This document shows, in pieces, positions 9,201 through 30,606 of a DNA stretch of 30,606 nucleotides (position 1 is its first letter; each line of letters begins with the position of its first letter). This DNA comes from a virus: positions 1-30,606 of the IMG/VR virus record IMGVR_UViG_3300009078_000007; one strand, given 5' to 3'. Position numbers and translations under genes: made by a program. Below the pieces are notes generated by a model, which did not search any database, was not told the DNA's origin, and was given only the letters and a program-made list of their open reading frames with translations.

Positions 9201-11519
9201 CTTCAGTTGCTCTACCTGCTTAGGCGTTGCAGTCTTGCCAAACTCTACTGCCTCTGGAGAACCTTTGAGTTCTGGAATTTCGATAGCAGGAGCTTCAACC
9301 TTTGCTGTTATTTCCCCCTCACCCTTAATCCCTCTTAATGTCTCTTCTAAGTTCTTCCTGATACCAGCCCTTTGTTCTTTAGGAGCATCTGCGATAGCTT
9401 TCAGCCCCTTGTTACGCAACCCCTCTATGAGCTTGTCTTTAGATACAGTGGCTTCAGAAGCATGTTGTATAGCCTTAGCAGGGTCTTTAGAAGCATATTC
9501 CACCAAAGTACCAAGCTCTACATCATTAACCCTGTCAGACTCTTTAAGCATGGCAGGAGTTTGAGCCTTGATTTTTTCTGAGCTTGTTCTTAATTTGCTT
9601 TCTTTCGCAATTAATCCAGGAGGAACTTTAGAACCTAATTCTGGTCCGTATTTAGCGGTAAAAGCATCCGCCATAGTCTTGCCTACTACTTGTTCTGCGA
9701 CAAGCTCTTTTGGAGTTTCAGCAACAGGTTTCAGCAAAGAAGGTTTCTTTATCGCTTCTTCTATGTTAGGCGATATAACAGGTTCAGTTTTGGCACTTGG
9801 CCCAGCTTGAGGCGGTTGTTCGGGAGCCATTCTCTTTTTAATGGCTTCTTGGAAGAGCTTGTCTCGTTCCGCAGGATTATTGATTGTTCTTAATATGGTC
9901 CCTTCGCTATGGCCTGCTTGCCTTAAATCATCAATAGATTGGACTACAAGACCACGTTCTTTTACTTCTAAATTTCTGTACCAATTTGTAGAAAATATTT
10001 TCTTAAAGATTTGTCCAGTTGCCCCTAATGCTCCCTCTAATGTACCAAAGAAAGCGGCATCTTTAGCTACACCCTCTGGTGTCCCTTCTTCAAGCAATCC
10101 ATAAAGACCACCGGCAAGACCGCCTCTTACTATATGCCCTGCTATTTGGTCTATAACCGGTCCAGTTTTTAAAACTAAATCAATAGGAAGACCAAAGGCT
10201 TTCATCATTGCGTTAGCTACTTTAAATGACATACTGATAGGAGCTATCGCACCTGCCATTTGGGATGCACCACCAACTACTTTTTGTGTATCTTCAGGCA
10301 GGTATTCGCCAAACTTAGAAATTCCCTTATCTATATAAGAAGTATAATCTTTGCCGGTAACAGCTTTTGTAATAGGTTGTGCAATAGCTTTTTCTGCGGC
10401 TCTCGGGATCATACCACGGGCAAGAGAAACAGCCCCATAAGGAGCAAGAGCCATTGCAGCCTTACCACCCTTTGCTACTTCTTCAGGTGTGGGAATAGGC
10501 TTGCTGGTAATAGTTGAAACAGGATGAATCATTTTGATACCATATTCAGCTTGCTTCAAATCTTCTAATTCACCTATTAAGTTTTTGGCTTCTTCTATCC
10601 TAACATTATGAGCGTTTATCTCGACATTATAATCTTCGATAGCTTTTTCATATTGTGGACGAAGTTTAGTATATTGTTCATACAAATCAGGAGGCAAAGC
10701 ATTATCAACAGCCTTAGAAGTTATTTCTCCTATTTTTATTTCTAAGCTCTTAATATTACCTAATCTTTTTTCAATAGCTTTACGGTCATCTTGCTCATCT
10801 TTTTGCTTTGGTCTTGTAAGCTCACCAAGCCTTTTATTAATTTCCTCTTTGCGGGCAGAAATATCATTAGGAATACCAGCAGGAATAGTTGATTCAGGCA
10901 TTCCCTCCATACCTTTTGGGACATTCGATTCAGGCGCAAATTGAGTAGTAAAATCAGGAACCTTGCTAATAGTTTCTTTTACAAACTCTTTGCCACGTTC
11001 AAGCATAGAAGAAGATTTACCTTGATCTAAAGTTGCCGTGTCCCCAGATATACCCAAAAACTCATCCACTGACATTTTCTTAGCCGGTGATATTTGAGTA
11101 TCAGGCAAATCTTCTTTTTGAGCAAAAGGATTTTTACCTTCTGCAAGTCTCATCTTTGCATGGTCAACAGCTTTTCTAACTATTGTCTCAGTAGGCGACT
11201 TACCGCTAAGCAAATAGTTTCTTTCTTCTAAACTTAGAGTCGGAACTAAGCTTGGGATTTCCAAATCTTTACCATCTATATTAACCCCTATAGATAACTC
11301 AGTTGAAATATTGCCGTCTGGCCTTGATAATGGCCCAAAATATCCTTGTCCTTTCTGTGTATTATCTTCCCTTAAACCATAATTTTTAACAGATACTTTT
11401 TTGTCTGAAGGTTCTTTAGCTTTATCTGGTGCAGATATGCCCAAGAACTCATCCACTGACATCTTCTTGGGAGCTATCTGATTACCAGATGCGGAAGCTA
11501 AATATTCATCAACATTCAT
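3246..11519 (-). CDS. Giant polyvalent (injected) virion protein: ParB-like, zincin, ART-PolyVal and LPD38-like domains (2757 aa)
   Basis: The start ATG lies five bases after the upstream stop, with only a weak site (GAGTAAG). Visible order: (1) residues 1-160, three copies of an M-x-VDE-F/Y-L motif (1-7, 18-29, 147-158) around a conserved virion segment (YGLREDNTQKGQGYFGPL, RPDG, STELSIGVNIDGKDLEIPSL); (2) 350-520, Gly/Ala-rich hydrophobic segments; (3) about 1015-1140, a ParB/ddrB-type domain with NGHQRYDIAQRTG at 1065; (4) a zincin with HESIH at 1479-1483 and candidate third ligand E1522 or E1523; (5) about 1595-1895, an ADP-ribosyltransferase of the polyvalent class with HGTPH at 1601, GTGEGAAAYGHGFYVAE at 1624, LLDWDKPLSEQ ending at 1756 and GIPGNKYLDAGSRN at 1822; (6) about 2480-2660, an LPD38-like region and further hydrophobic segments. 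Polyvalent proteins are known to travel in virions and carry anti-host effectors. Domains are recognised by motif; injection and targets are inference. Confidence 0.85.
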   Translation of the reverse strand: MNVDEYLASASGNQIAPKKMSVDEFLGISAPDKAKEPSDKKVSVKNYGLREDNTQKGQGYFGPLSRPDGNISTELSIGVNIDGKDLEIPSLVPTLSLEERNYLLSGKSPTETIVRKAVDHAKMRLAEGKNPFAQKEDLPDTQISPAKKMSVDEFLGISGDTATLDQGKSSSMLERGKEFVKETISKVPDFTTQFAPESNVPKGMEGMPESTIPAGIPNDISARKEEINKRLGELTRPKQKDEQDDRKAIEKRLGNIKSLEIKIGEITSKAVDNALPPDLYEQYTKLRPQYEKAIEDYNVEINAHNVRIEEAKNLIGELEDLKQAEYGIKMIHPVSTITSKPIPTPEEVAKGGKAAMALAPYGAVSLARGMIPRAAEKAIAQPITKAVTGKDYTSYIDKGISKFGEYLPEDTQKVVGGASQMAGAIAPISMSFKVANAMMKAFGLPIDLVLKTGPVIDQIAGHIVRGGLAGGLYGLLEEGTPEGVAKDAAFFGTLEGALGATGQIFKKIFSTNWYRNLEVKERGLVVQSIDDLRQAGHSEGTILRTINNPAERDKLFQEAIKKRMAPEQPPQAGPSAKTEPVISPNIEEAIKKPSLLKPVAETPKELVAEQVVGKTMADAFTAKYGPELGSKVPPGLIAKESKLRTSSEKIKAQTPAMLKESDRVNDVELGTLVEYASKDPAKAIQHASEATVSKDKLIEGLRNKGLKAIADAPKEQRAGIRKNLEETLRGIKGEGEITAKVEAPAIEIPELKGSPEAVEFGKTATPKQVEQLKVKRDEAYAESDRLQAEAKEAYAGGDGLTGENKLNDAVIASSKANLYREAIDASEGKLTGPPPMTPIIPGTRPKGIETIEAEGEVKPAEAKAEKQSWEMGGDEWLASPEGQERLKNAKQEVINDEIRIIGATFKKKGITGQDKLILSRSLDKTKRGQLEGFAQRRAELIALGTLDNKGHKGIIKQALSEGNLTPERYTELHEKDYGPLEEFMPAEAKETEPVAPPATQEPGSIDPKFPVKDLFIDAKTLQYKRFTDEKGVTGKLSDAEEFDEKFGGVLTVWRDPKTGKVFVSNGHQRYDIAQRTGKETVPVRFSKVKTAEEAKYEGALINIAENNGSPEDAAVIFREYGLTADDVNKKYHISLKGDIARKGLALSRLHPTIFNSVEKREIPQNWGVTIGENLDNQDMQIDLIRYLDKVKRSGKTVNIGVLEQLIKDINGEVVGTVEVKDGVIFGPESFERPLLMERAELRDYAVNELAKEKRLFGTVGQEGAAKKLTIGGNIIDVNKSKTVAEKAALIKDIFEKLAGSKGEISNELNKYAEELSNVRSKGEKDRIKRDFLERLRETINEFIKGGKGTDIKIGRGDAKTGAYKDTERLEDNLLKPEQYEFGKSIPVKGDESLLDILRKAPPLKNTTMGISPDGSVWVRNKNGKGFVVRSVKQIEPNKADLLISHGKMLEKGEFITGKYKDSSIELVRGTGEEPWTATHESIHFFEDLGYISSIEKAIMSNHIKRLQKEGKWDSGNREVGGEEDRAVFITENLRDRSIKGPLGRILQKISDLIDAFVNLFKRTAKGVMRDIESGKVFDRDLGKPSRKVRVKALEQYQALKHGTPHVWPPEKGYPHGRPRLDKIGTGEGAAAYGHGFYVAEAEEVARSYKETLQRAIADKIVIDGKQIDRFERNDVAWALEDMGYEHDLAWTAADWLMNKGLKENKNMAADRGLERLHNVFSKIKEVPIQEGSLYTLELPDDVLPKLLDWDKPLSEQSEYVKEVLAKTEYAPFLSGKDPENASLHDRFGVWRPKDLNPERIYYELSAKMGGQSQASEYLASIGIPGNKYLDAGSRNRTEWVAKHPQGGENVFNTKGEAEAFIKRNPEYELIPPKQTSNFVIWDQTVLDRMALLERNGEKLDTIRLGDAKANLFENIKSEKGSSDLINDLSQLGADAIKRGHKSYKDFVSYMKAELKDVWNRVKPLMLRAYDAAKKVLKSERGAIEIGAEKDIIKRRREKIKAIRDYFNLSDNDLKKISWKDIRLMSNYEFEQFIDYIKVKFGEDRYLGNIFVTPEGREQTIAEKFVERQQAMNELELLRKEKAFIAEDNIRKFHKLPTIKNMTKNQLTEYLGILSKYEKGDQFLTPKRIKGIEKTLWAGSKTIREVLEKASKEFDIPMSELAKIRVHEIDRFRYDTSLAKQNAFYNFMVDTIKTAEIKNQFKYFKEREKLYSLAKLALKSKKRGIIGRLIPRQKELMEYLEAEEDAKIEIATKLTTEEIALADGIEDFYRRAYNWLLINQELKNSRFADSKYVFHSKRPISEMLVDLKDTGIKSAAKDLLRRWQLDEAQFKILDSKTGKILRMKKFFRQTLYRTGELTPTKNIIKATDIYMQQFFKKMALDESVPAIETLALALRPKEKTKTGIFLNDSLITFVKEYLNNKKGRTLNIGIQQGGKIDTVIRFVNQMISLRYIALNIPLELAAIVGETTAKLPALGNRKLILANIRRHTPKGRRILKKYKAFTGEGVFEEVMQPARNIGENINMVLYGLFKWSRKVTKQDILLGNMTREEFKAETIDPKKLAEVTKLAGRWLDIEGSKSILGSTSTGAAITKFKGWAIPIASSTIQDVNSLARTLTRLGNPKKRLTREQFQELYRFAETGAILTAILSLTSDDYDKDSFAGKLKYYAIRELGTLYNALTPFTLLTFGVTIAFLEKLSKNLYLLMTLEKYKTRDELKGATALKKQFEPAAISQFKHDKPKKKKSSVVGYSPWKISSGSVK

Positions 11520-21189: not shown

Positions 21190-21912
21190 TTACGCTACTC
21201 TACAGCAAAGAGCATATACTTCCACTATCAGCCCATCGAAATCAACCGCACCAGCACACGAAAAATCAATGGTATCGGCAGAAGAAAAATACAAAGGAAC
21301 CTGTCTCAACGGAGCTTTATTCACCAATACCGACAATGTGGCCGATGCAAGATCAATGGCCCCGCCAGTATTATTAAGAAGTTGAGCAGTCACAGTGTCA
21401 GCGGCAGTAACAGCGGCAGTCAAGGCCAGATCAGCGACATCAATACTGTAATAAGCAGTGGCAATATCACCCAGCCTTGCACCATCAACCGTAACCTCTT
21501 TAGCCTCTTCATCGCCATCAGCGATAGACCCTGCGTCCCATGTGGAAGTTGCCGACAAAAGTGTGGCAATCAGCCCTGTAGCATCCATGGGAAGCTCATG
21601 CCCCCACCTGTCAACATCTGAACCATATCCCAAATTCAGGATCGCTCCTGAACCTTCAGCAGTTGTTACCCTGCACCAGCAATCAAGAACAGTAGTCCCT
21701 GCTGCGACAATCAATGCCTGAGCAACATCCACATCTGATGCATCAAGAGTTTGTTTGGTACAATCGACAACATTTCTAAGTAGAAAAATATGTTGGCCGA
21801 TAGATTCTATTCTCCGTATAGCAGTACGTTTTGTCTTGATCTTCGCATACTGATCTGGAATCATCTGCCCGGCTATAGAACCATCTGTAAAGTTAAAAGT
21901 TTCTGCACCCAT
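21190..21912 (-). CDS. Capsid accessory (decoration-like) protein, long paralogue with inserted domain (240 aa)
   Basis: GAGGTAATAAA precedes the ATG. Residues about 1-118 and 206-240 align with the 149-aa product encoded just upstream: FTDGSIAGQMIP versus FTNGSIGGAAIP, FLLRNVVD versus FFLRNIVD, and PLYFSSADTID versus PVYFSSADTID. Residues about 120-205 are extra and contain DGDEEAKEVTVDGARLGDIA and TVTAQLLNNTGGAIDLASAT. I recognise this as a beta-rich segment found in many small phage head proteins ('GaxLGDxvxaSxxvdl...TVtvrlxNxTgxxvDLas'). Both proteins follow the major capsid gene, so a decoration or head-fibre role is likely but is inference. The paralogy can be seen directly. Confidence 0.75.
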   Translation of the reverse strand: MGAETFNFTDGSIAGQMIPDQYAKIKTKRTAIRRIESIGQHIFLLRNVVDCTKQTLDASDVDVAQALIVAAGTTVLDCWCRVTTAEGSGAILNLGYGSDVDRWGHELPMDATGLIATLLSATSTWDAGSIADGDEEAKEVTVDGARLGDIATAYYSIDVADLALTAAVTAADTVTAQLLNNTGGAIDLASATLSVLVNKAPLRQVPLYFSSADTIDFSCAGAVDFDGLIVEVYALCCRVA

Positions 21913-21998: not shown

Positions 21999-22004
21999 CA
22001 TTAT

Positions 22005-22021
22005 TTAGCGACCTGCGCTAA
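22005..22021 (-). repeat. 6-bp hairpin overlapping stop codon
   Basis: TTAGCG and CGCTAA form a perfect 6-bp stem with a five-base loop. The stem includes the TAG stop of the short accessory gene and stands directly before the larger terminator-like structure. It could protect the 3' end of the capsid messages. Confidence 0.4.
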
Positions 22022-22467
22022 AAAGAATCAACATTTTTGACGCACATTGCCACAACTTCTACTTTAAGGCCGTCAATATCAACGTCTGCTGTATCAGTGG
22101 TTGCCGTAATATCAATGGTATCAGCGGAAGAAAAATACACCGGAACCCAAAGATACCCGACAATACTTCCAGCTGTAGAATCACCAGTCAAAGCATCACC
22201 CCATACATCAGGGTTGCCGCCATAACCAAGATCAACCGTACCATTGGCTGTTTCAGCCGTCATTATTCTCAGCCATGCAGTAATAACAGTGGTCTTGGCA
22301 GGGATGTCGATAACCTGAGCAACGTCAGCTTCGCCAGCTTCCAAATCCTGCAAAGAAAAATCCACAATATTGCGGAGGAAAAATACTTCGTTTTCCTCGG
22401 CAGTCTTAACTCTGGGGATAGCTGCACCCCCTATAGAACCATTTGTAAAATCATAAGTAGTAGCCAT
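22018..22467 (-). CDS. Capsid accessory (decoration-like) protein, short paralogue (149 aa)
   Basis: AGAGGTAATGAATA precedes the ATG. The product is beta-rich, with TTVITAWLRIMTAETANGTV, DLGYGGNPDVWGDAL and a conserved end YFSSADTIDITATTDTADVD-IDGLKVEVVAMC. It is a clear paralogue of the 240-aa protein encoded downstream, lacking the latter's middle domain. It directly follows the major capsid gene (27-base gap), which suggests a head decoration or head-fibre protein. No enzymatic motif is present. Family name is not recognised with certainty. Confidence 0.75.
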   Translation of the reverse strand: MATTYDFTNGSIGGAAIPRVKTAEENEVFFLRNIVDFSLQDLEAGEADVAQVIDIPAKTTVITAWLRIMTAETANGTVDLGYGGNPDVWGDALTGDSTAGSIVGYLWVPVYFSSADTIDITATTDTADVDIDGLKVEVVAMCVKNVDSF

Positions 22468-22494
22468 TATTCATTACCTCTTTGTGTTATTATG

Positions 22495-23607
22495 TTAGTG
22501 AGCAGCGGCATAAGACGTGATTACCATTGTGGCAAAATCGATGGAATTAAAGATATTCTTTTTAATCCCACATACCATGCCACCGCAGATGCCCTTCTCA
22601 TTACCATAATCGTCTCTATCCTCGGCCCAACTCATATAGTTGTTAGGGCCATACTTCTTTTGATCCACCTTGTCGTAAGGATTGGCAAGAGCAAATGAAC
22701 CGGCTTGCGCTCCGAGCATCACTGCCCTGCGGACACTGGTGGTTGGTGAATATATATGATGGCTTTCAAAAATTATCATGCCATGATAAACACCAAGCGC
22801 ACCTGTGAAAACAGGGTTCTTCAGCCCACGCACATTCGCATATTGCTGAATTGTAGTCCAGTCAATATTAGTTCCTGCCCCAAGACCCAACCTTAAATCA
22901 GTGGCTTGATACGGATGGACAACCACGACAAAATATTCACCGCCTTCTATCCTTACCGGCCTCATGGGAGGCACACCGGCAACTGAAGGCACAGTTGCTT
23001 TTTCTTTTGCGTAGTCAAGTTCCTCAAGGCTGATCTGGTCATTACTGCCCAGACTTGCCTCATCGGTGGCGATAGTCCCTGTATGTGTCACATCACCACA
23101 TACATAATAATGATATGTTTCAGGAGCTACAACAACCTGACCAAAAGTCAATGTCGCATCCCCGCAAAAATTGCGGAACATATAACTCTCAAGAGTATCA
23201 GCACACTTGTCGCTGATATTTTCCTGAGCGTCTTTTCTCAAATCATGCAGGGTACGCTGTTGAGACATTCTTTTAAATTCATGGGGAAATCTCATCTGAT
23301 CTATTACCAGTGAATCCTGATAGTAAACCAGAGCTTCGCCCATCCCCTTGGCCCTGTTATCGCCAGTAATGGGGTCTTGGGTCATCTGCATCAACAGGTC
23401 ATATTTAACCGTGTCTCCGCTTCCTTTGTCCATCTCGTCAAAAAATTCTATAACGGCACGTTTGCCAGTAGGCATACCATTGACCTTCTTCCCGAAACCC
23501 ACAAGCTGCTTAAACAAATGCGTGCTTTTCAGAGCTTCCCTGAAGGTCTTGGTAGACCAATTAAGTACATTTTGTGATGACGCTGTTGCAAATTCAGTTG
23601 CAGCCAT
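22495..23607 (-). CDS. Major capsid protein, N4-gp56 family
   Basis: CGAGGTAAAGAATT precedes the ATG. The start FATASSQNVLNWSTKTFREA, the segment KRAVIEFFDEMDKGSGDTV, and TGDNRAKGMGEALVYYQDSL-VIDQMRFPHE are characteristic of the N4-gp56 / DUF4043 group of HK97-fold major capsid proteins (N-arm, E-loop region and spine helix). The 370-residue length fits the family. The gene follows a scaffold-like gene and precedes head accessory genes, the expected order. No protease gene is seen between portal and capsid, so maturation may proceed without a separate cleavage enzyme. Confidence in the capsid role is high; the subfamily call is from recognised motifs. Confidence 0.9.
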   Translation of the reverse strand: MAATEFATASSQNVLNWSTKTFREALKSTHLFKQLVGFGKKVNGMPTGKRAVIEFFDEMDKGSGDTVKYDLLMQMTQDPITGDNRAKGMGEALVYYQDSLVIDQMRFPHEFKRMSQQRTLHDLRKDAQENISDKCADTLESYMFRNFCGDATLTFGQVVVAPETYHYYVCGDVTHTGTIATDEASLGSNDQISLEELDYAKEKATVPSVAGVPPMRPVRIEGGEYFVVVVHPYQATDLRLGLGAGTNIDWTTIQQYANVRGLKNPVFTGALGVYHGMIIFESHHIYSPTTSVRRAVMLGAQAGSFALANPYDKVDQKKYGPNNYMSWAEDRDDYGNEKGICGGMVCGIKKNIFNSIDFATMVITSYAAAH

Positions 23608-23627
23608 AATTCTTTACCTCGTTAAAG

Positions 23628-24650
23628 TTATTCCTCCGCATCCATCAGGTCATATAGCTTTTCAGCCTGAGAATCACTTAGAGAAAGCAAATTCTCAAGC
23701 GGCAGGTCAGCAATACTTGTTAAATCCATCCCTGACTTCTTGCTGTTCGGGGCATTACTGAAATTAGACTTACGCCCCAAAGCTTTTGCCTGAGCCAAAG
23801 AGGATTCTTTTTTTTGCAAATTAACAGGCGGTTGTTTTTTTGAAGCCACCATTTTTAATGCCTTACGCAATTTATTAGGGATAATCGCAGGGATGTTAGT
23901 CATGAAAGCATCCACTACTACATCAAAATCAGAATCGGGGAATTGTTCCCCAAATGCTGAATTAATTCCCGAAGCATAAAGCATTTCCATTGCTTCTTTG
24001 TGGCTGTTGGGAGGTCTATTACCGTTTTTCACAAACTCATCAAAGTTGCGGCTTATCCACTCCCATTGCCCTGTTAATTCACCAATCCCGGTTTGAAAAG
24101 CAGGATCTTCCGATATTACGTTTTTAGCTAAAGACCCTATATTAGAAGCCTGAGACTGATACATCTGCTGTTGCCTGCTGCTCATTATTTCCATCTGGAG
24201 CGGGGCAAGTTCTTGTCTTATAATGTCCTTTATGCGGTCGGATTTAATTATAGGTTTTTCATCTTCATCAAATTCAACCGCTAAAATATCCTGGTTTTGT
24301 TGTAACTCTGCTTCCTGGCGTCCTGCCTGTTGAGCCTGTTCCTGTTTGCGCTGTTCTATTGTTGATAGAAATTCATTGATCTGGCTGAATCTTCCTTCAA
24401 GGTTTTGCCTCTTAGACCTTTCTTTAGTAAGTTCTGCGAGTAACCCCTTGTTAGCTTTTTCAAGTTCGTCAAACCTTCTATTTACCGGATCATCCGGTTT
24501 AGTCTGGCTTTCATCAACAACTTCACCTTCTTCGCCCGGTGGAGGCGCTTCTTCTTCACCTGAAGGTTCAGCTTCAGAAAGTTCAACTTCGGTTTCCTCA
24601 ACTTCGGCAGTTGTATCTTCTGTTGTCATAACATCTTCTATTGTCGCCAT
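23628..24650 (-). CDS. Scaffold-like capsid assembly protein (340 aa)
   Basis: AAAGGAAATAAAA precedes the ATG. Residues 1-55 are strongly acidic (EVEETEVELSEAEPSGEEEA, then PPPGEEGEVVDE). A coiled coil follows at about 58-125 (RRFDELEKANKGLLAELTKE; IEQRKQEQAQQAGRQEAELQ), then mixed helices, then a basic stretch at about 265-310 (NKLRKALKMVASKKQPP; GRKSNFSNAPNSKK), and an acidic end. Such acidic/coiled/basic layouts, with the gene directly before the major capsid gene, are the usual signature of scaffolding proteins that bind the capsid's inner face and leave after assembly. Homology itself is not recognised. A strong terminator stands about 90 bases upstream, so this gene may need its own start of transcription. 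Confidence 0.75.
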   Translation of the reverse strand: MATIEDVMTTEDTTAEVEETEVELSEAEPSGEEEAPPPGEEGEVVDESQTKPDDPVNRRFDELEKANKGLLAELTKERSKRQNLEGRFSQINEFLSTIEQRKQEQAQQAGRQEAELQQNQDILAVEFDEDEKPIIKSDRIKDIIRQELAPLQMEIMSSRQQQMYQSQASNIGSLAKNVISEDPAFQTGIGELTGQWEWISRNFDEFVKNGNRPPNSHKEAMEMLYASGINSAFGEQFPDSDFDVVVDAFMTNIPAIIPNKLRKALKMVASKKQPPVNLQKKESSLAQAKALGRKSNFSNAPNSKKSGMDLTSIADLPLENLLSLSDSQAEKLYDLMDAEE

Positions 24651-24663
24651 TTTTATTTCCTTT

Positions 24664-24679
24664 CACTCTTTCGGGAGTG
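24664..24679 (-). promoter_or_regulatory. Leader hairpin next to scaffold-gene ribosome binding site
   Basis: CACTC and GAGTG form a perfect 5-bp stem with a six-base loop (CCGAAA), ending directly before AAAGGA, the ribosome binding site of the scaffold-like gene. It lies in the 91-base stretch between the strong terminator and the start codon. No convincing -35/-10 pair was found in that stretch. The hairpin may affect translation or be a processed 5' end. Confidence 0.35.
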
Positions 24680-24740
24680 TACCGATGCACCTTTTACAGT
24701 GGTGAACTGAATACGTCCTTTAACAGAGACGACCCGGTTA

Positions 24741-24789
24741 ATAAAAAAGGCCCGGCAAACAATTCATTCAAGAACTGCCAACCGGGCCT
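24741..24789 (-). terminator. Strong intrinsic terminator
   Basis: AGGCCCGG and CCGGGCCT pair perfectly over 8 bp around a 26-base loop and are followed by TTTTTT(ATT) on the minus strand. This is the clearest Rho-independent terminator in the window. It closes the terminase-portal-mini-ORF unit and separates it from the scaffold-capsid genes. An inner GGCA/TGCC pairing offers an alternative fold. The span from 24651 to 24814 holds only this terminator and the leader hairpin. Confidence 0.85.
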
Positions 24790-24814
24790 ATATGATCCTC
24801 GTGTTAGTTATTAA

Positions 24815-24961
24815 CTATTTAATTTTAAAAGTTATTTTAAGTTCTGCGTTTTTAAGGCATGGCTTGTTCTCCTTTGTTATCGTAAACCATAATTGTTCAC
24901 GTTCGCAAATATCAATTATTTCTTTTAATATCTTTTCTGCTTCAACTATATCGTTAAACAT
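24815..24961 (-). CDS. Mini-protein of unknown function (48 aa)
   Basis: The ATG overlaps the stop of the preceding 39-aa ORF as TGATG and is preceded by GAAAGG, so it is probably translated by coupling. The product begins MFNDIVEAEKILKEIIDICE and ends in a basic beta-like tail (NAELKITFKIK). The first half is an amphipathic helix and there are two cysteines. No family is recognised. The tight overlap, readable start site and strong terminator right after it support it being a true gene. A role next to portal and scaffold (assembly factor or small regulator) would be a guess. Confidence 0.55.
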   Translation of the reverse strand: MFNDIVEAEKILKEIIDICEREQLWFTITKENKPCLKNAELKITFKIK

Positions 24962-25080
24962 CAACCTTTCAATACCCGTCTCATGGGATTGGTATATACT
25001 CTATCAGTTTCATTCTTATGCCAGACATGATAATACTTAGACCAGAACTTTGCAAGTGATAAACTCTTAGTGTTAATCAT
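24961..25080 (-). CDS. Mini-protein of unknown function (39 aa)
   Basis: The start overlaps the portal stop codon as ATGA, and its own stop overlaps the next ATG as TGATG. Such linked overlaps are strong signs of coupled translation. The product is basic and rich in aromatic residues (LSLAKFWSKYYHVWHKNETD; VYTNPMRRVLKG), with no membrane segment. No family is recognised. The two mini-ORFs could in principle be parts of one gene split by a frameshift, but each has a sound start context, so separate proteins are more likely. Confidence 0.5.
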   Translation of the reverse strand: MINTKSLSLAKFWSKYYHVWHKNETDRVYTNPMRRVLKG

Positions 25081-27161
25081 TGCACAATACCTTGACGCTG
25101 CTGTTGTGGCTGTGGCTGTTGTCCGCCCATAGGTAATTGCTGCTGCATGGCCTGACGTTCCGCATCCTGCTGGCGGGCCATTTCCTGCCCTCTCTGGTTA
25201 ATAAAGTCAGCTACTATCTGTTGAGCAGCCAACCGCTCTGTCTGACTAAGTTTAGCCATACCAACCGCATAATCCTGAGCATTCTCTTCCTGTTTTACTT
25301 CAAGTCTGGATTGCTCAATGACCGCCTTGGCTTGTTCTTTCATAATTTCAAGCTGGCTCTCCATCTCCTTCATCTTTTTGCCTTGTTCATTGGTCTGGTT
25401 TATAAATTCCATCCAATCCATTTTATCCCCGGCACTAAGATCAAGTTTCTCGATGAGAGTTTCAGGATTGACTGGGAACCCAAGCTTCAGCATTTCCATA
25501 AAAATGGCAAGCTCAGACATGGTTTTTGTAATATTGCCCGGAGAATCTTCAACCTTGATATTGTATTTAAGATCCTTGAAATTCCTTATATCAGTCTGCA
25601 AACCATGTTTATCATCAAACACCATGCCATTCTCAATTCTATACTTATCATTATTACCAATAATGCGGAGTAGTTGTTCTTCCGGCATATACTTCATTAT
25701 TGTAAGGAGTTTGCGCCTGTATATCTCAAACCTCATCTTCTTGAAATTATCGAAAGCCCTTGCCAGCATCACAAGACCCTGCTGAATCCTAAGCCGGATA
25801 ACAACTCCTGATTCCTGCTTATTCCCTATCTCCCCCATGAGATTGGGATTAAGACCGCTGATAGTCTTTATGGCATCCTGGGACAATGCTTCCATCTTCA
25901 TACAGGCATCAGGAAATATAAGAGCAGGTTTTTCCTGAACTTTGCCCTGAGACAGCGCACCTTCTTTCAGCCATGTAATCTGCGTCGGGTCTGACCAGCT
26001 TTCTTCGGCCTGCCTTGGATCAACAAACGCCCCTATCTCAGCCATTACCCCCTGCCCCTGGCTGACCAAGGAATTAAGAGCCTGACACCATCTTTTGTTG
26101 ACTTCTCTGTTGGGGTCTTTCAGCGGCCTTACTATCCCATAGTAATCAATGCTTTTGCCGCTTTTGTCTTTTGTCCAGAAAAACGGAACAAGGGAAAACC
26201 CATCAACAGGAATAGGGGAATCATTATCAAAAAGAATCCTGTCGCCCGTAAACTCAAGCCACTTAACCTTTTTATCCCATAAAGTAGTATAATCAAAATT
26301 AGGAATTTTCTCTTTTAACGCACTAAGCTTTTCTTCAGGAAATTCTTCAACCTGCCGGGTAACAGGGTTAAACCCATAATATCTCTTGTAATTATCCCAA
26401 TACTGCATACGGATTACCCTGATAAGCTGCTTGTCAAGATTATAAAAATCAGGGTCAACCTGACGCTCATAATCGCTATCTTCAGGATCATCAACCGCTA
26501 TCCCGTCAATATCATGGGTATCTACTTCATCAAGAAAAGGAAAGGCAATCTTCCCTGATTTCATTATGTCTTCAATATCCCCTGCATGTTCAGGATAATT
26601 TATTTTAAAGTCTTCAGTACTTAACCACTTTTCCCTGAATACCCACCTTGCATCCTTCCAATCATCACGCCTGCTTGACGGATCAATGGATACTTCATAG
26701 AATGGAACTTCAGTCTCGGACATAAGTATCTCAGTTGGTCTTTCAGGGTCGGCCATTACATCAACATCAATATAACCGGCCCCGCAGGTAGCACCATCGT
26801 CAAACGCTTCGATCTCTTCCTTTTCAGCACCGATTCTGTCATCGATAAACTCAATGGCTTCCTCCATTATGTCGCAAAGTAGCTGGTCTGAAGATTCCCT
26901 CGGTTCAGGTATAACCTTAAAGGGATTCTGGATTATAGTACCGACAGCCAGCTTTACACATGGCTCAATCATGTTCCACACATAAGCAGGCCGTGGAGGA
27001 TTCCCCTTTTCAAGAGCATTTCTCTCCTGGCTGGTCCACATATGCCCGGCCTTGAAAGCGAAGTCAGACCATTTGTCCCTGTTCGTCTTCTGTGATACAC
27101 TCACAGATTCACGAAACTTGTCGATAGCATCCCTTAGTTTTTCGGGTAGTAATTCAGACAT
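25077..27161 (-). CDS. Portal protein, P22-type
   Basis: The ATG lies after a weak AAGG site. The N-terminus (FRESVSVSQKTNRDKWSDFA, then NPPRPAYVWNMIEPCVKLAV and GTIIQNPFKVIPEP), the acidic wing segment (GATCGAGYIDVDVMADPERP) and YYGIVRPLKDPNREVNKRWC are typical of P22-like portals. The stem/crown part includes SGVVIRLRIQQGLVMLARAF. About residues 590-660 form a helix or coiled coil, and the last about 25 residues are very Gln-rich (QQLPMGGQQPQPQQQRQGIV), resembling a barrel/low-complexity end. At 694 residues it is close to P22 gp1 (about 725). It forms the twelve-fold ring at the packaging vertex and binds terminase. It overlaps the next mini-ORF by four bases. Confidence 0.88.
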   Translation of the reverse strand: MSELLPEKLRDAIDKFRESVSVSQKTNRDKWSDFAFKAGHMWTSQERNALEKGNPPRPAYVWNMIEPCVKLAVGTIIQNPFKVIPEPRESSDQLLCDIMEEAIEFIDDRIGAEKEEIEAFDDGATCGAGYIDVDVMADPERPTEILMSETEVPFYEVSIDPSSRRDDWKDARWVFREKWLSTEDFKINYPEHAGDIEDIMKSGKIAFPFLDEVDTHDIDGIAVDDPEDSDYERQVDPDFYNLDKQLIRVIRMQYWDNYKRYYGFNPVTRQVEEFPEEKLSALKEKIPNFDYTTLWDKKVKWLEFTGDRILFDNDSPIPVDGFSLVPFFWTKDKSGKSIDYYGIVRPLKDPNREVNKRWCQALNSLVSQGQGVMAEIGAFVDPRQAEESWSDPTQITWLKEGALSQGKVQEKPALIFPDACMKMEALSQDAIKTISGLNPNLMGEIGNKQESGVVIRLRIQQGLVMLARAFDNFKKMRFEIYRRKLLTIMKYMPEEQLLRIIGNNDKYRIENGMVFDDKHGLQTDIRNFKDLKYNIKVEDSPGNITKTMSELAIFMEMLKLGFPVNPETLIEKLDLSAGDKMDWMEFINQTNEQGKKMKEMESQLEIMKEQAKAVIEQSRLEVKQEENAQDYAVGMAKLSQTERLAAQQIVADFINQRGQEMARQQDAERQAMQQQLPMGGQQPQPQQQRQGIVQ

Positions 27162-27176
27162 TGGCTATATCGCCTT

Positions 27177-27512
27177 CTAATTGCGCTCCCAGAATATAAT
27201 CACTTCAACGTCTTCAGTACCGGCCTCACTCTTCTTAATCTTCAACAAGTCACCTCTTGCTACAGGCTTGGGAGGATCAAAAATCAGGTCATGTGTAGTG
27301 CTTTCAGCCTTAGTCCCCGAATTCCACCTTTCATCACCATCTGTAAGCTGAGCCTGGTCAAATAGCCCAAAGGTTACAGTAGATGTCCCGGTTAAAGACG
27401 GAACTTTGGCCCATATCTCACTTATTTTACCTCTAAATTCAAAAGTCTTGACTGTTACCCATGCCGTCCCTGCCAAAGTCGCAGTTACAACATTTCGCCT
27501 TTCTAAGCTCAT
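27177..27512 (-). CDS. Small beta-rich protein, probable structural (111 aa)
   Basis: AAAAAGGATAAATAAAC precedes the ATG, two bases after the upstream stop. The sequence alternates polar and hydrophobic residues as in a small beta-sandwich (TAWVTVKTFEFRGKISEIWA; STVTFGLFDQAQ; EDVEVIIFWERN at the end). No signal peptide, membrane helix or catalytic motif is present. It lies between terminase and portal, where small head or packaging-vertex proteins are frequent. Function is not recognised. Confidence 0.7.
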   Translation of the reverse strand: MSLERRNVVTATLAGTAWVTVKTFEFRGKISEIWAKVPSLTGTSTVTFGLFDQAQLTDGDERWNSGTKAESTTHDLIFDPPKPVARGDLLKIKKSEAGTEDVEVIIFWERN

Positions 27513-27514
27513 GT

Positions 27515-27832
27515 TTATTTATCCTTTTTAGGGCGTCCCGCAGGTCTGCCAACCTTGGCTTGATTGTCAACAGATTCAGTGGCAGGAGCGAAAGTTATGG
27601 GAGCAGTACCGACAGACTCCCCTATTGCAGGACCTTGAGGAATTTCGAAAGCAACCCGGGGTCTTGGATCATCCCTATAAAGAGCTACCACATAGTTGCC
27701 AACAAACCCTTCACCTGTCTCCGGGTCATAATGTACTATCACAGGGTTGATCCTGTTAGTCCTCATCAATCCCTTAAACTTAGGCTCTGTCACTTCCATA
27801 ATGTCACCAGTTACTAATTTTACGAATGGCAT
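27515..27832 (-). CDS. Small protein with C-terminal AT-hook-like tail (105 aa)
   Basis: AAGGAG lies 6 bases before the ATG. Residues 1-75 look like a compact beta fold (VKLVTGDIMEVTEPKFKGLM; NPVIVHYDPETGEGFVGNYV). A flexible Ala/Pro/Thr stretch follows, and the protein ends in KVGRPAGRPKKDK, an AT-hook-like sequence (GRP core flanked by basic residues) known to bind the minor groove of AT-rich DNA. Placed directly after large terminase, it might help hold or guide DNA at packaging. That role is inference. A conventional small-terminase HTH is not seen in it. Confidence 0.7.
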   Translation of the reverse strand: MPFVKLVTGDIMEVTEPKFKGLMRTNRINPVIVHYDPETGEGFVGNYVVALYRDDPRPRVAFEIPQGPAIGESVGTAPITFAPATESVDNQAKVGRPAGRPKKDK

Positions 27833-27842
27833 AAACTCTCCT

Positions 27843-29198
27843 TTATCTGCCCATGAATCCGGCGTTATAGTGTTTTATTGGTAAATCGAAAACCTCTTCC
27901 TGAACTTTATACCCTGCCGCAAAAGTTCTGAACGCATCAGCCGGGTTACTGGTCCAGTCATGCAACGGCCTGTCACCAAGCTTCTTTTTCTTCTCGTCAT
28001 ACTCGGCCCTGTAATTCTCCAGACCGGCAAGGCCCTTATAGCACTTCTGCTCATCAAACCAGCTTCGGGCAATGGCATTTCGACCGGCAGGAATATGCTC
28101 TTTGATAATTACGTCCATATTGCGTGCCCTGTCAACAATCATTACAGGCTTGATACCAAGATCCTCCGCTGTCTGTTTCACAGTCTTGGCAATTATCCCT
28201 GTACTTGATTCCCTGCGTTTAGCATCATGAGGCATCCAGTGATTGCCATAGACATAAGGTTTTTCTTTGAGGACATTGGCATAATGTTCCATACCAAAGC
28301 CCCTGCCCTCATAATAGTCAATCCAATGGTACGACTGACCTCTTGGCTGCATGAACCATATTGCCATCGCATCATTAAGGCCCAGATCCCAGAAGGTATC
28401 AACTTCAACTCCGGGGTCCCAAGGGACTGAAGTTACTCTACCCTCGGTCCTTGCAGTAACCAGAGCAGAAGCATAATACGCCCCCATCACCGCACCGGAA
28501 AAGTTACAGAGGTATTCCTGAGAATAGAGCGCACTGCCAAGAGCAGTGCCGAACATATTGATATTCTGCTGAAGGATCTCGTCTAACTGCTCTTTTGAGA
28601 ATACAGGAGTGTCAAGAGCGGTTAACCGTTCGGCAAACCATTTGGGAGATTTCAGGGCATTTTCGTAAGTCGTTTTACCATGGTTGTCGCCGCGACTGGT
28701 AAAAACGAACATTGCCCACCCACCATTTTCTTCAAGGATAGGCGACAGATAAGCCCATGCCATAGGGTCTGCCAAGGCCCACTCCGATAATACTAAGCCA
28801 ACAGGAGGGCTGCCAACGATAGCATTATAATTGTCTGAACCCACCAACTGCCAGGTTGAGCCGTTACGGAATTCTATAAACATCGAATCATTACGGGTTC
28901 TGGTTCTGAGTTCGGGAGGGAATGCCTCATCTATCCGGCGCATTGAAGTACGGGGATTGACCGCATCCCAGATTGATTTACGGGCCTGATCGTATTTGGG
29001 AAGTAAGTGCCAGTAGTTACCTATACGCTTAAAAGCGGAAACAGCGGTATAATGTAAAGCGCAATCATCCTTTCCCCAACGTCTATGCGCCACTTCAACA
29101 GCACGAGTACCACCGTTTTCCATGTAGTTCCACAGCTTCATCTGGTCCGGTCTCGGCCTCCAGTTGTTAGGGAGCGTTATTTCTACAGCTTTACCCAT
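27843..29198 (-). CDS. terL: Terminase large subunit (packaging ATPase and nuclease)
   Basis: The 451-residue product carries the ATPase motifs of large terminases: a Walker A variant HRRWGKDD (38-45), Walker B LVLSE (135-139) with the catalytic Glu, and the coupling motif FTSRG (166-170). The nuclease half begins with VDTFWDLGLNDAMAIWF (Asp267 and Asp271 are likely metal ligands) and ends with DWTSNPADAFR, the last conserved acidic motif. The protein cuts and pumps phage DNA through the portal. It is the first gene of the late block, right after a strong promoter. The ribosome binding site is weak, which may limit its level. An overlapping ATG a few bases upstream is out of frame. No separate small terminase gene was recognised. 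Confidence 0.93.
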   Translation of the reverse strand: MGKAVEITLPNNWRPRPDQMKLWNYMENGGTRAVEVAHRRWGKDDCALHYTAVSAFKRIGNYWHLLPKYDQARKSIWDAVNPRTSMRRIDEAFPPELRTRTRNDSMFIEFRNGSTWQLVGSDNYNAIVGSPPVGLVLSEWALADPMAWAYLSPILEENGGWAMFVFTSRGDNHGKTTYENALKSPKWFAERLTALDTPVFSKEQLDEILQQNINMFGTALGSALYSQEYLCNFSGAVMGAYYASALVTARTEGRVTSVPWDPGVEVDTFWDLGLNDAMAIWFMQPRGQSYHWIDYYEGRGFGMEHYANVLKEKPYVYGNHWMPHDAKRRESSTGIIAKTVKQTAEDLGIKPVMIVDRARNMDVIIKEHIPAGRNAIARSWFDEQKCYKGLAGLENYRAEYDEKKKKLGDRPLHDWTSNPADAFRTFAAGYKVQEEVFDLPIKHYNAGFMGR

Positions 29199-29219
29199 TC
29201 ATACCACTATATATTGTAC

Positions 29220-29233
29220 GTCAAAGTTTTGAC
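29220..29233 (-). promoter_or_regulatory. Palindrome at start of late transcript (operator-like)
   Basis: GTCAAA and TTTGAC form a perfect 6-bp inverted repeat with a two-base centre, at roughly +4 to +17 relative to the start expected from the promoter just upstream. Its location is right for a repressor or activator operator, or a small hairpin in the leader. Only the symmetry and position are seen. Confidence 0.45.
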
Positions 29234-29243
29234 ACCATACATC

Positions 29244-29272
29244 TATATAAACATGATTTTTATATCTGTCAA
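29244..29272 (-). promoter_or_regulatory. Sigma70-type promoter for the late (virion) operon
   Basis: TTGACA (perfect -35) is separated by 17 bases from TATATA (-10), in the 97-base AT-rich gap between the 65-aa ORF and terL. The expected start is about 29237, giving a leader of roughly 38 bases. It is the best promoter-like sequence in the window and stands exactly where the packaging-head-tail genes begin. Use by the host RNA polymerase is inferred. Confidence 0.75.
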
Positions 29273-29295
29273 GTAGTTTGTGAAAATATTTTTAT

Positions 29296-29493
29296 CTATA
29301 CCACCTCCGCCCTGAAGTGGCTGAACTTATTGCCCTCTTCAAAACACCATGCTATATCAACGATTTCCCATAGCTTGCCGTGCCTTGATAACTGGAGTTT
29401 ATCCCCTATTCTCGGCTCATAAGCAGTATTTACCTCCGGCGGGGTAATCCAACTGTTTGTAATAAAGAGATGTTTATAGAATTTAATCTTCAT
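29296..29493 (-). CDS. Small protein of unknown function (65 aa)
   Basis: TTGGAGGGTAACA gives a strong ribosome binding site before the ATG. The sequence is beta-rich (MKIKFYKHLFITNSWITPPE; GDKLQLSRHGKLWEIVDIAW), in a pattern resembling small SH3- or Tudor-like barrels, with a charged end (HFRAEVV). No family is recognised. It lies upstream of the late promoter, so it belongs to the preceding transcript with the DUF559 nuclease. Confidence 0.7.
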   Translation of the reverse strand: MKIKFYKHLFITNSWITPPEVNTAYEPRIGDKLQLSRHGKLWEIVDIAWCFEEGNKFSHFRAEVV

Positions 29494-29527
29494 TGTTACC
29501 CTCCAATATCATCAGTAAATTACTCAT
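29483..29527 (-). CDS. Possible 14-aa mini-ORF with strong ribosome binding site
   Basis: ATG (29527) follows GGGAGGGGTCTA, one of the best ribosome binding sites in the window, and encodes MSNLLMILEGNNED before a TAA. It overlaps the start of the 65-aa gene by 11 bases in another frame. It may be a coupling or leader ORF that brings ribosomes to the next start, or simply chance. Confidence 0.3.
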   Translation of the reverse strand: MSNLLMILEGNNED

Positions 29528-29542
29528 TAGACCCCTCCCATA

Positions 29543-29818
29543 TCAGACCAATCCCTCAGACACAAATAATGCAGGACTTATATCAGGCTTAACCATTAAT
29601 ACACCATTATCATCTAAATAATAGTCAGTGCAACAATTCCGGTAGAGTGCCAACTTAGCACGTCTATCAAGCGCAGATCCTTTTAAGACCTTGAGAGATT
29701 CCTTTACTTCATCATGTTCTTTGATCCCAGGGGAAAAAACAACCCCTATTCTCCCCCATTTTTCATAAAGTACACCATTACGGCTTATTGTTTGTAATGC
29801 TATTCTTTCTTTTTCCAT
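29543..29818 (-). CDS. Small protein of unknown function (91 aa)
   Basis: The ATG overlaps the upstream stop as TGATG, with GGGAGGG about six bases before it, which decides this start over a TTG one codon earlier. The product is mixed alpha/beta (ALQTISRNGVLYEKWGRIGV; KESLKVLKGSALDRRAKLAL), with two adjacent cysteines (RNCCTDYYLDDNG). No family is recognised. Coupling to the DUF559 endonuclease gene suggests the two are made together; whether they interact is unknown. Confidence 0.65.
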   Translation of the reverse strand: MEKERIALQTISRNGVLYEKWGRIGVVFSPGIKEHDEVKESLKVLKGSALDRRAKLALYRNCCTDYYLDDNGVLMVKPDISPALFVSEGLV

Positions 29819-30297
29819 CAAGATCCCTCCCGTCTTAACTCGTTAAAATATACCCTCGATTCAGGACATACCTTTAATATGATCTGTTCCAGTATAGCTA
29901 AAGGATCACCACTAAGCACCTCTTCATTAGAGAATCGTATGACATCCTTTCCCCTCTTCTCTATGGCTCTCGTACGTTTATCGTCATCAACTTCCCTGCC
30001 TTCATGGCAGCCACCATCTATTTCTATCACCAGTCTATACTTGATCAGGTAAAAATCAGCTATCTTATAACCATCATCAGTCTTGATAATCTTCTGGGCC
30101 TCATACTTAAAACCTAACACTTTTAACAGGGCGCCAAATTTCTTTTCAGCAGGTGTCGGATTAACTAAATGCTCAGACCTGAACTTATCGACTGCCTTAC
30201 AACCACAACCCTTTACAGCCTTTCGTTTCTTCCTTATCCTCTTCTTTTTAGAAGATTTCCCTGCACCATACAATTCTATTTTACATAAATAATTCAA
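29818..30297 (-). CDS. DUF559 / very-short-patch-repair-like endonuclease
   Basis: The N-terminus is basic (GKSSKKKRIRKKRKAVKGCG). From about residue 47 the sequence follows the DUF559 pattern of restriction-endonuclease-fold proteins: NPTPAEKKFGALLKVLGFKY, then YKIADFYLIKYRLVIEIDGG with the PD-(D/E)xK-type residues D (in ADF) and E-x-D (in VIEIDGG), then DDKRTRAIEKRGKDVIRFSN. Vsr and related nucleases share this core. It may nick or cut DNA, for example in packaging, recombination or homing; which is not shown. The start is uncertain: the first possible in-frame start is the TTG at 30297, while the ATG at 30286 is out of frame and stops at once. Confidence 0.75.
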   Translation of the reverse strand: MNYLCKIELYGAGKSSKKKRIRKKRKAVKGCGCKAVDKFRSEHLVNPTPAEKKFGALLKVLGFKYEAQKIIKTDDGYKIADFYLIKYRLVIEIDGGCHEGREVDDDKRTRAIEKRGKDVIRFSNEEVLSGDPLAILEQIILKVCPESRVYFNELRREGS

Positions 30298-30340
30298 AAT
30301 ATTTTCACTTTTCTCTTGACAGATTCAGATTTTCATGGTA

Positions 30341-30355
30341 CTTAACTCTGTTAAG
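30341..30355 (-). repeat. Inverted repeat in gap before DUF559 gene
   Basis: CTTAAC and GTTAAG form a perfect 6-bp stem with a three-base loop. It lies in the 142-base gap 30298-30439, which otherwise shows no good promoter or terminator. The arms resemble those of the repeat at 265-291 (CCTTAACCA/TGGTTAAGG). It may be an operator or chance. Confidence 0.4.
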
Positions 30356-30439
30356 GCGCCCGAAGCTATTTCGTTTATCCCCTTAAACTGCACAGAACCT
30401 TAAATTCAAAAGCGAAGCAGACTCTCAGCAAAAACTGAA

Positions 30440-30606
30440 TCATATCAAACATTTAGCTATCTTGACCTTACGTAAGTGCTTAGGATTACAACACAATTTA
30501 TTTCCACATGTCTCAACTACACGCTCATGACCATAGACCGGTTCAGGACCGAAGACTATCATAGCCGATTTCTGAGCTGGGAACTTCTGATGTCCCCCCG
30601 GATAGA
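30440..30606 (-). CDS. HNH-like protein, C-terminal part (runs off right edge)
   Basis: Only the last 54 residues are present. They contain AMIVFGPEPVYGHERVV followed by ETCGNKLCCNPKHLRKV, which matches the end of small phage HNH endonucleases (general pattern 'A...GpiP.g..V.H.CgNp.CcNPeHL'). The usual first His of the motif appears to be Glu here (VVET instead of VLHT), so catalysis may be altered or the alignment slightly shifted. HNH proteins are often found close to terminase genes, where some take part in DNA packaging. Since the N-terminus is missing, a homing endonuclease cannot be excluded. Confidence 0.6.
   Translation of the reverse strand, partial: YPGGHQKFPAQKSAMIVFGPEPVYGHERVVETCGNKLCCNPKHLRKVKIAKCLI

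Follow-up and report, generated by a model that had tools for sequence, protein, structure and literature searches.

ORF B, a 48-codon reading frame between the portal gene and the putative scaffold gene of an uncultivated phage, is, as judged from comparison with related loci, a genuine small gene. By the same comparison its homologues form a new small-protein family that is absent from the libraries consulted. ORF B is followed by a conserved sequence box and a predicted intrinsic terminator, and we tentatively favor the reading that the site is a terminator-bounded accessory slot in which ORF B encodes a small accessory, possibly counter-defense, protein. The family was noticed only through attention to coupled mini-ORFs and is tied to a conserved terminator amid a phage head module. 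Other phages that infect sulfate-reducing bacteria carry members of it, as do two bacterial genomes.

The window, i.e., the whole stretch of DNA that was analyzed, is a virus record of 30.6 kb, 9,527 bases of which are identical to part of a 45-kb contig (L002). On the minus strand the gene order is terminase, two small genes, portal, ORF A, ORF B, terminator, putative scaffold, and coat, and the portal-to-scaffold interval (426 nt) is the longest gap among the 19 main genes listed. The features of this region are the following.

25077..27161, minus strand: portal protein gene, P22-like (Pfam PF16510, E 1.7e-85; phrog_156)
25077..25080, minus strand: ATGA overlap of the portal stop and the ORF A start (read from the sequence)
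24961..25080, minus strand: ORF A, 39 aa, lineage-specific, possibly coding (open frame; no homologue; codon score at the 4th percentile among chunks of true genes)
24959..24963, minus strand: TGATG overlap of the ORF A stop and the ORF B start (read from the sequence; 1- or 4-nt overlaps in 15/15 intact phage loci tabulated)
24815..24961, minus strand: ORF B, 48 aa, member of a new small-protein family (profile made without the window and L003, E 1.3e-9; alignment A6; dN/dS ~0.1 among relatives)
24793..24805, minus strand: conserved box AACACGAGGATCA, upstream of the hairpin (alignment A8)
24743..24789, minus strand: predicted intrinsic terminator, hairpin 24748-24789 plus T tract (folding, covariation, and RNA model R1 at 66.8 bits, with the window in training)
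24697..24709, minus strand: scaffold-leader mini-hairpin 1 (CAGT/ACTG, then TAAAA), from the leader scan; a leader-specific element in relatives
24664..24679, minus strand: scaffold-leader mini-hairpin 2 (CACTC/GAGTG), just before the ribosome-binding site (leader scan)
23628..24650, minus strand: putative scaffold gene, 340 aa, its name based on position alone (homologue in L003/L004)
22495..23607, minus strand: major capsid protein gene (Pfam PF13252, E 3.7e-39; phrog_334)

The two mini-ORFs of 39 and 48 codons had been described in an earlier note made from the sequence alone, and its description proved exact: ATGA spans the portal stop, and TGATG spans the ORF A stop. Both frames lie on the minus strand, a detail that the note leaves out. 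The putative scaffold gene had no Pfam or PHROG match. Elsewhere in the window, the late region contains one ORF of 2757 codons (3246-11519, minus strand), and two neighboring genes share a 43-nt direct repeat (21259-21301 and 22105-22147; 86% identical, 846 nt apart).

ORF B and its family

Among the ORFs upstream of the coat gene in eight distant phages recovered by a coat scan, two look-alikes of ORF B were present (L017 and L019). Over 41 residues, the L017 protein and ORF B are 37% identical (pairwise E value, 1e-6); the protein of L019 gave no pairwise alignment with ORF B, yet it is 47% identical to that of L017 (E 3e-11). A four-seed profile matched 23 frames at an E value of ≤1e-3, the weakest of them at 3.7e-15 and the next frame at 0.4. 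With a profile built without the window and L003, ORF B was found among 600 window frames at an E value of 1.3e-9 (next frame, 0.17), and an earlier profile had no match at E ≤ 1 among reversed frames.

In 18 further phage-type contigs an ORF B homologue precedes the putative scaffold gene; this count leaves out duplicates and two bacterial copies and includes the genome contigs L115, L117, and L118. The portal gene was seen in 12 of these 18. Coat identity to the window was 28 to 30% in 16 of the 17 ORF B contigs compared, none being reported for L117. In distant loci "scaffold" denotes position, as the scaffold profile matched only the window, L003, and L004. Of the 64 loci in which portal and coat genes are both present, 12 carry ORF B (L003 and L004 counted); these loci come from a second coat scan, centered on the relatives of L017 and covering the best 80 of 166 loci, so that the ratio is no natural frequency.

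Two columns of the family are invariant, namely, the P and the L of a KPxLK stretch, and both are present in the ORF B of the window, as is the C-terminal strand. dN/dS ratios were 0.09 to 0.12 in four ORF B pairs (three within one cluster, the fourth with a saturated dS) and 0.10 for the pair of bacterial copies (L126/L127). In addition, the start of ORF B overlaps the upstream stop by 1 or 4 nt in all 15 intact phage loci tabulated; for this table start codons were picked from candidates, L015, L054, L115, and L118/L128 (L118 is the same contig as L128) were left out, and four of the loci (L042, L043, L044, and L047) are closely similar. The uncoupled exceptions are L115 and L128, where ORF B starts ~80 nt after the upstream gene, and in L057 the family domain forms the C-terminal part of a 134-aa fusion. 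The bacterial copies either overlap an open frame by 1 nt (L126) or follow one after 5 nt (L127), the larger upstream genes ending 21 to 60 nt earlier. No other ORF separates ORF B from the terminator except in L019, where one of 92 codons intervenes.

Neither ORF of the window matched a family in the libraries consulted. Pfam and PHROG gave no match at E ≤ 0.001 for the window ORFs and 15 members, and NCBIfam gave none at the same threshold for the two ORFs of the window. Likewise, tblastn of three members against 50,697 phage records recovered no family member, the three matches obtained (E 6 to 8) being at chance level. In the parts of the literature that were accessible, no account of the ORF A and ORF B genes or of the scaffold leader element was found.

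The closest relatives, L003 and L004, differ from each other by 3 bases in 11,107 and are treated as one lineage. Their portal and coat proteins are 69% and 84% identical to those of the window, ORF A is absent, the ORF B homologue begins 10 nt after the portal gene and is frameshifted by a one-base length difference in both assemblies, and the 3' arm of the terminator is lost. Over the 31 C-terminal codons of ORF B, L003 and the window differ by 7 amino acid changes versus 12.6 at random (P 0.002, the lowest of six frames), while one antisense frame gave a P value of 0.03 in the same test. ORF B of this lineage therefore looks like a coding gene that has been broken. Disrupted frames beside conserved head genes had been put forward as the finding that would count against the two ORFs. 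That situation does exist in this one lineage; it does not refute ORF B, because other lineages keep it intact, and a coupled ORF can be real although the copy in its nearest relative is broken. A plus-strand antisense ORF at 24792-25040, which aligns by eye to one in L003, was set aside since its frame is less conserved than that of ORF B (P 0.03 versus 0.002). The portal gene of L003 also carries a long C-terminal glutamine run (L003:6013-6184), far longer than that of the window.

The expectation of conservation at the same site in related phages held for ORF B and failed for ORF A, which is missing from the nearest relative and had no homologue in profile and sequence searches of the frames of the window and its relatives. 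Its codon score is below that of 96% of true-gene chunks and is exceeded by 14.5% of spurious ORFs. Given the ATGA, an ORF of at least 39 codons arose in 5.2% of 20,000 shuffled spacers, and both coupled ORFs together arose in 0.02%. ORF A belongs neither to the ORF B family nor to the GRDF family, a conserved small gene found after the portal gene in 70 locus records (duplicates included); ORF A is unlike this gene, which had no match in the window or L003. A match to MBOAT_2 (E 0.005) was below the cutoff, and matches to Escherichia phage frames had E values of 2 and above; both were taken as chance. ORF A may serve this lineage as a bridge over which ribosomes reach ORF B, or its frame may be open by chance.

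Conserved box and predicted terminator

The hairpin behind ORF B had been called the strongest terminator of the window, and it does rank first, if narrowly: a both-strand scan of the whole window placed it at −28.3 kcal/mol, ahead of a runner-up at 713-773 (minus strand; −28.0 kcal/mol) with a poor T tract. In context, the hairpin at 24748-24789 (minus strand) with its T tract folds at −28.8 kcal/mol (z −4.8), and 0 of 200 shuffles were as good. A simple scan of 22000-30606 did not list it. Like intrinsic (Rho-independent) terminators, the element is a stable GC-rich hairpin directly before a T tract; unlike them, it has a conserved upstream box and a conserved stem sequence. The box consensus before the scaffold gene is AACACGAGCACCA, and that of the hairpin is AGGSCCGG...CCGGSCCT followed by the T tract (alignment A8, built around terminators, with 18 rows including near-duplicates). 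Double changes occur in 8 of the 13 predicted pairs, and inner pairs are broken in 3 to 5 of the 18 rows.

A terminator precedes the scaffold gene in 13 of 14 nonredundant loci with ORF B versus 5 of 36 without it (p 3e-7) when either of two criteria (energy of ≤−20 or stem of ≥7) is accepted, a union formed after both had been seen; the stem criterion alone gave 10/14 versus 4/36 (p 7e-5). L003 is the sole ORF B locus of the 14 that lacks the terminator. The 50 rows compared are what remained of 84 after removal of 16 without a scaffold ORF, 3 set aside (L112, L022, and L031), 2 that were too short, and 13 that were redundant; L113 and other genome contigs are outside these rows. Covariance model R1 matched 10 of the 12 ORF B loci among 53 sources at E ≤ 2e-8, with 9 of the 10 in its training set, and L053, outside training, scored 50.9 bits. 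The other two loci reached E values of 0.021 (L046) and 0.031 (L003); among the 41 remaining sources the top value was 0.016. Rfam returned one subthreshold match for the window stretch, located inside the scaffold gene. An integron attC site was considered and rejected by eye.

The element also occurs in bacterial genome contigs. Of 12 genome matches, 4 were strong, 2 were weak but had the box (G133 and G096), and 6 were weak with no box visible by eye. In L113, a 5.8-kb Desulfobacterales contig, the box and terminator score 69.2 bits. They are preceded by a gene that is truncated by the end of the contig (L113:1-310). This gene matches the solved "Acb2 homolog 43" (PDB; E 1.1e-4), and no frame of the other loci is related to it. 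Acb2 is an anti-CBASS protein. ORF B is not found in the 5.8 kb of this contig and could lie beyond the cut edge. In G133 and G096 (L133 and L138; position 1501 on), the box, a GC hairpin, and a T tract stand behind a phage integrase gene and score 36 and 32 bits, again without ORF B, and both elements are preceded by GATACATCAT.

Related coat genes occur in six genome contigs, which bear the names Desulfospira joergensenii, Desulfobacteraceae, Syntrophobacterales, and Desulfobacterales, and five of the six carry ORF B. Among whole genomes, the ORF B profile matched 4/291 of that order and 2/395 of the phylum (overlapping samples). The unit is present in the genome of Desulfospira joergensenii DSM 10085 (L116). 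G285 and G095 (L126 and L127) have ORF B, box, and terminator, and the 9.0 and 9.5 kb that were read contain neither a portal nor a coat match. A portal scan of bacterial genomes found no relative. The neighbors are SIS, NTP-transferase, and DapB genes in one of these genomes and prephenate dehydratase, shikimate dehydrogenase, aldolase, and sigma factor genes in the other, and the gene preceding ORF B appears, by eye, to encode a secreted protein in both.

Proposed accessory slot and alternative readings

The stretch from portal to terminator would, as we read it, be an accessory-gene slot that ends the terminase-portal transcript. Small genes in the slot would be translated by ribosomes leaving the preceding gene, the hairpin probably terminates transcription in the cell, and the terminator would insulate a scaffold-coat unit that begins behind its own structured leader. 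ORF B, with its predicted helix and beta-hairpin, may act on the host, possibly against a defense system as Acb2 does. AlphaFold, run on two sequences, predicted a helix (residues 2 to 21) and two strands (25 to 32 and 39 to 46), with a pLDDT of 78 for the best of five models (56 to 78) and a pTM of 0.53. The occurrence in L113 of the box-terminator behind an Acb2-like gene favors a slot whose terminator insulates the scaffold-coat unit. Other small genes in the portal-terminator interval vary among loci. Accessory (moron-like) and counter-defense slots of phages are similar in that patchy small genes occupy a fixed place closed by a terminator, as with the Acb2-like gene of L113. The site differs from them in that ORF B matches neither Acb2 nor another family (PDB searches with ORF B and with its family profile listed no Acb2 at E values up to 10), its start codon overlaps the stop of the preceding gene, and any promoter of its own is hypothetical.

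Several observations speak against an accessory slot. The counter-defense argument is carried by the one edge-cut L113 contig, any promoter between terminator and scaffold is hypothetical, and starts are not fused to the upstream stop in L115 and L128 (~80 nt) or L003 (10 nt). In L019, the 92-codon ORF stands between ORF B and the terminator. Moreover, a mere slot does not explain why ORF B and the terminator are so strongly linked or why they were lost together in L003. These two observations keep alive an alternative in which ORF B acts as a regulator: it would bind the box or hairpin that ends its own transcript and so adjust the read-through that reaches the scaffold-coat unit. That reading, which was favored first and then lowered when the L113 box-terminator behind an Acb2-like gene moved the odds toward the accessory slot, we now consider unlikely. 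It draws on the 13/14 versus 5/36 association, on the shared loss in L003, on the presence of ORF B and terminator together in two bacterial genomes, and on the 50.9 bits of L053 outside training. It is weakened by the box-hairpins that occur without ORF B (L113 at 69.2 bits with the Acb2-like gene; G133 and G096 at 36 and 32 bits with the integrase gene) and by the fold searches, which gave no significant RNA-binding fold match and a best PDB match at E 1.1. No match to the ORF B model fell below E 0.3, and a chain with a double-stranded RNA-binding domain was listed at E 3.2 (TM 0.53 of the query, for this two-sequence model with a pLDDT of 78). Q-like late antiterminators (phrog_79) are comparable as small genes beside a terminator before structural genes, but the ORF B protein is a third of the length of that profile, and the match of phrog_79 to three closely similar members was weak and not significant (E 0.013 to 0.041, one helix only).

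That ORF B is a small factor in head assembly or a minor protein of the virion, with the terminator as ordinary operon punctuation, is slightly less probable still. In the phage loci ORF B does precede the putative scaffold gene, and it follows the portal gene in every locus where one was seen. However, ORF B is absent from 52 of 64 relatives with the same head genes, from five isolates by profile (L027, L028, and L030 to L032), and from Parlo by annotation, and in two bacterial genomes it occurs with no head gene close by. The suggestion of the earlier note that the ORFs encode small assembly or regulatory proteins was accordingly not substantiated: most relatives with the same head genes lack ORF B, which sits away from head genes in two bacterial genomes, and the same terminator follows an Acb2-like gene in L113. 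That the two ORFs are open merely by chance in an AT-rich spacer is very improbable; it would suit ORF A (5% given the ATGA, a low codon score, and no homologue) and is excluded for ORF B by its homologues, its coupling, and its synonymous bias. We give equally little credence to a two-codon minigene (strong ribosome site, then ATG CCT TAA), similar to the known two-codon bar minigenes of phage lambda, within a 33-nt stretch identical in L003. This stretch is the second-longest exact run between the window and L003, and the pattern, designed after it had been seen, is present once versus 0.02 times expected by chance. However, it encodes KPxLK, the most conserved residues of the family, in the ORF B frame, and its 25-mer occurs in three viral contigs only.

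A more far-reaching version of the accessory slot, which taken as a whole we regard as improbable, would be a counter-defense slot in phages of sulfate-reducing bacteria. ORF B would represent a new, very small counter-defense family docked by start-stop fusion, the box-terminator would be a portable docking end protecting the scaffold-coat operon, and bacteria would have taken up a version with ORF B. If the slot reading is true, the place before the terminator is where one could well search uncultivated phages for unknown small counter-defense genes. Should the regulator reading hold instead, the site is a compact switch between portal and coat expression.

Scaffold leaders and other genes of the head module

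A second conserved small gene after the portal (motif GRDFR...FPxAPG) was noted at L017:3120-3329, at L047:4282-4497, and in 68 further locus records (duplicates included), as well as at L117:4232-4447, and it overlaps the portal stop in several loci. Three copies had no significant Pfam or PHROG match, and the gene is absent from the window and L003. The head modules of BcepIL02, Parlo, and POI1126 resemble that of the window in having a P22-type portal, a hypothetical gene in the scaffold position, a coat gene, and a small regulator-like gene within the module. They differ in that a CsrA-like gene lies between the scaffold position and the coat and in that ORF B is missing (by profile in BcepIL02 and POI1126, by annotation in Parlo). 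The CsrA-like genes are at L030:8547-8741, L032:5920-6114, and L142:4390-4572; the Pfam CsrA match had an E value of 8.9e-8 in BcepIL02 and of 0.0047, below the cutoff, in POI1126, while that of Parlo is by annotation.

Mini-hairpins (such as CGTC/GACG, CGCC/GGCG, and CACC/GGTG), each followed by T(T)AAA, occur 76 times in 57 scaffold leaders versus 5.2 times in shuffled ones, with at least one in 42 of the 57 (some near-duplicates included). Within 53 nonredundant leaders, 53 of 66 anchored arms pair upstream versus 16.4 when permuted, and the rate is 80% versus 3% (25/800) elsewhere in the same loci. The sequence of the mini-hairpins changes while pairing is kept just before the scaffold ribosome site (L055, L061, L063, L068, L073, L076, L080, L085, L089, L097, L099, L103, and L105). 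Rfam had no match at the gathering score in the loci of seven relatives. The window has two mini-hairpins at 24664-24709 (minus strand), with similar spacing and other sequence. The P22 scaffolding protein controls its own synthesis, and for this reason the leader mini-hairpins are candidate targets of such control and a candidate control element of the scaffold gene.
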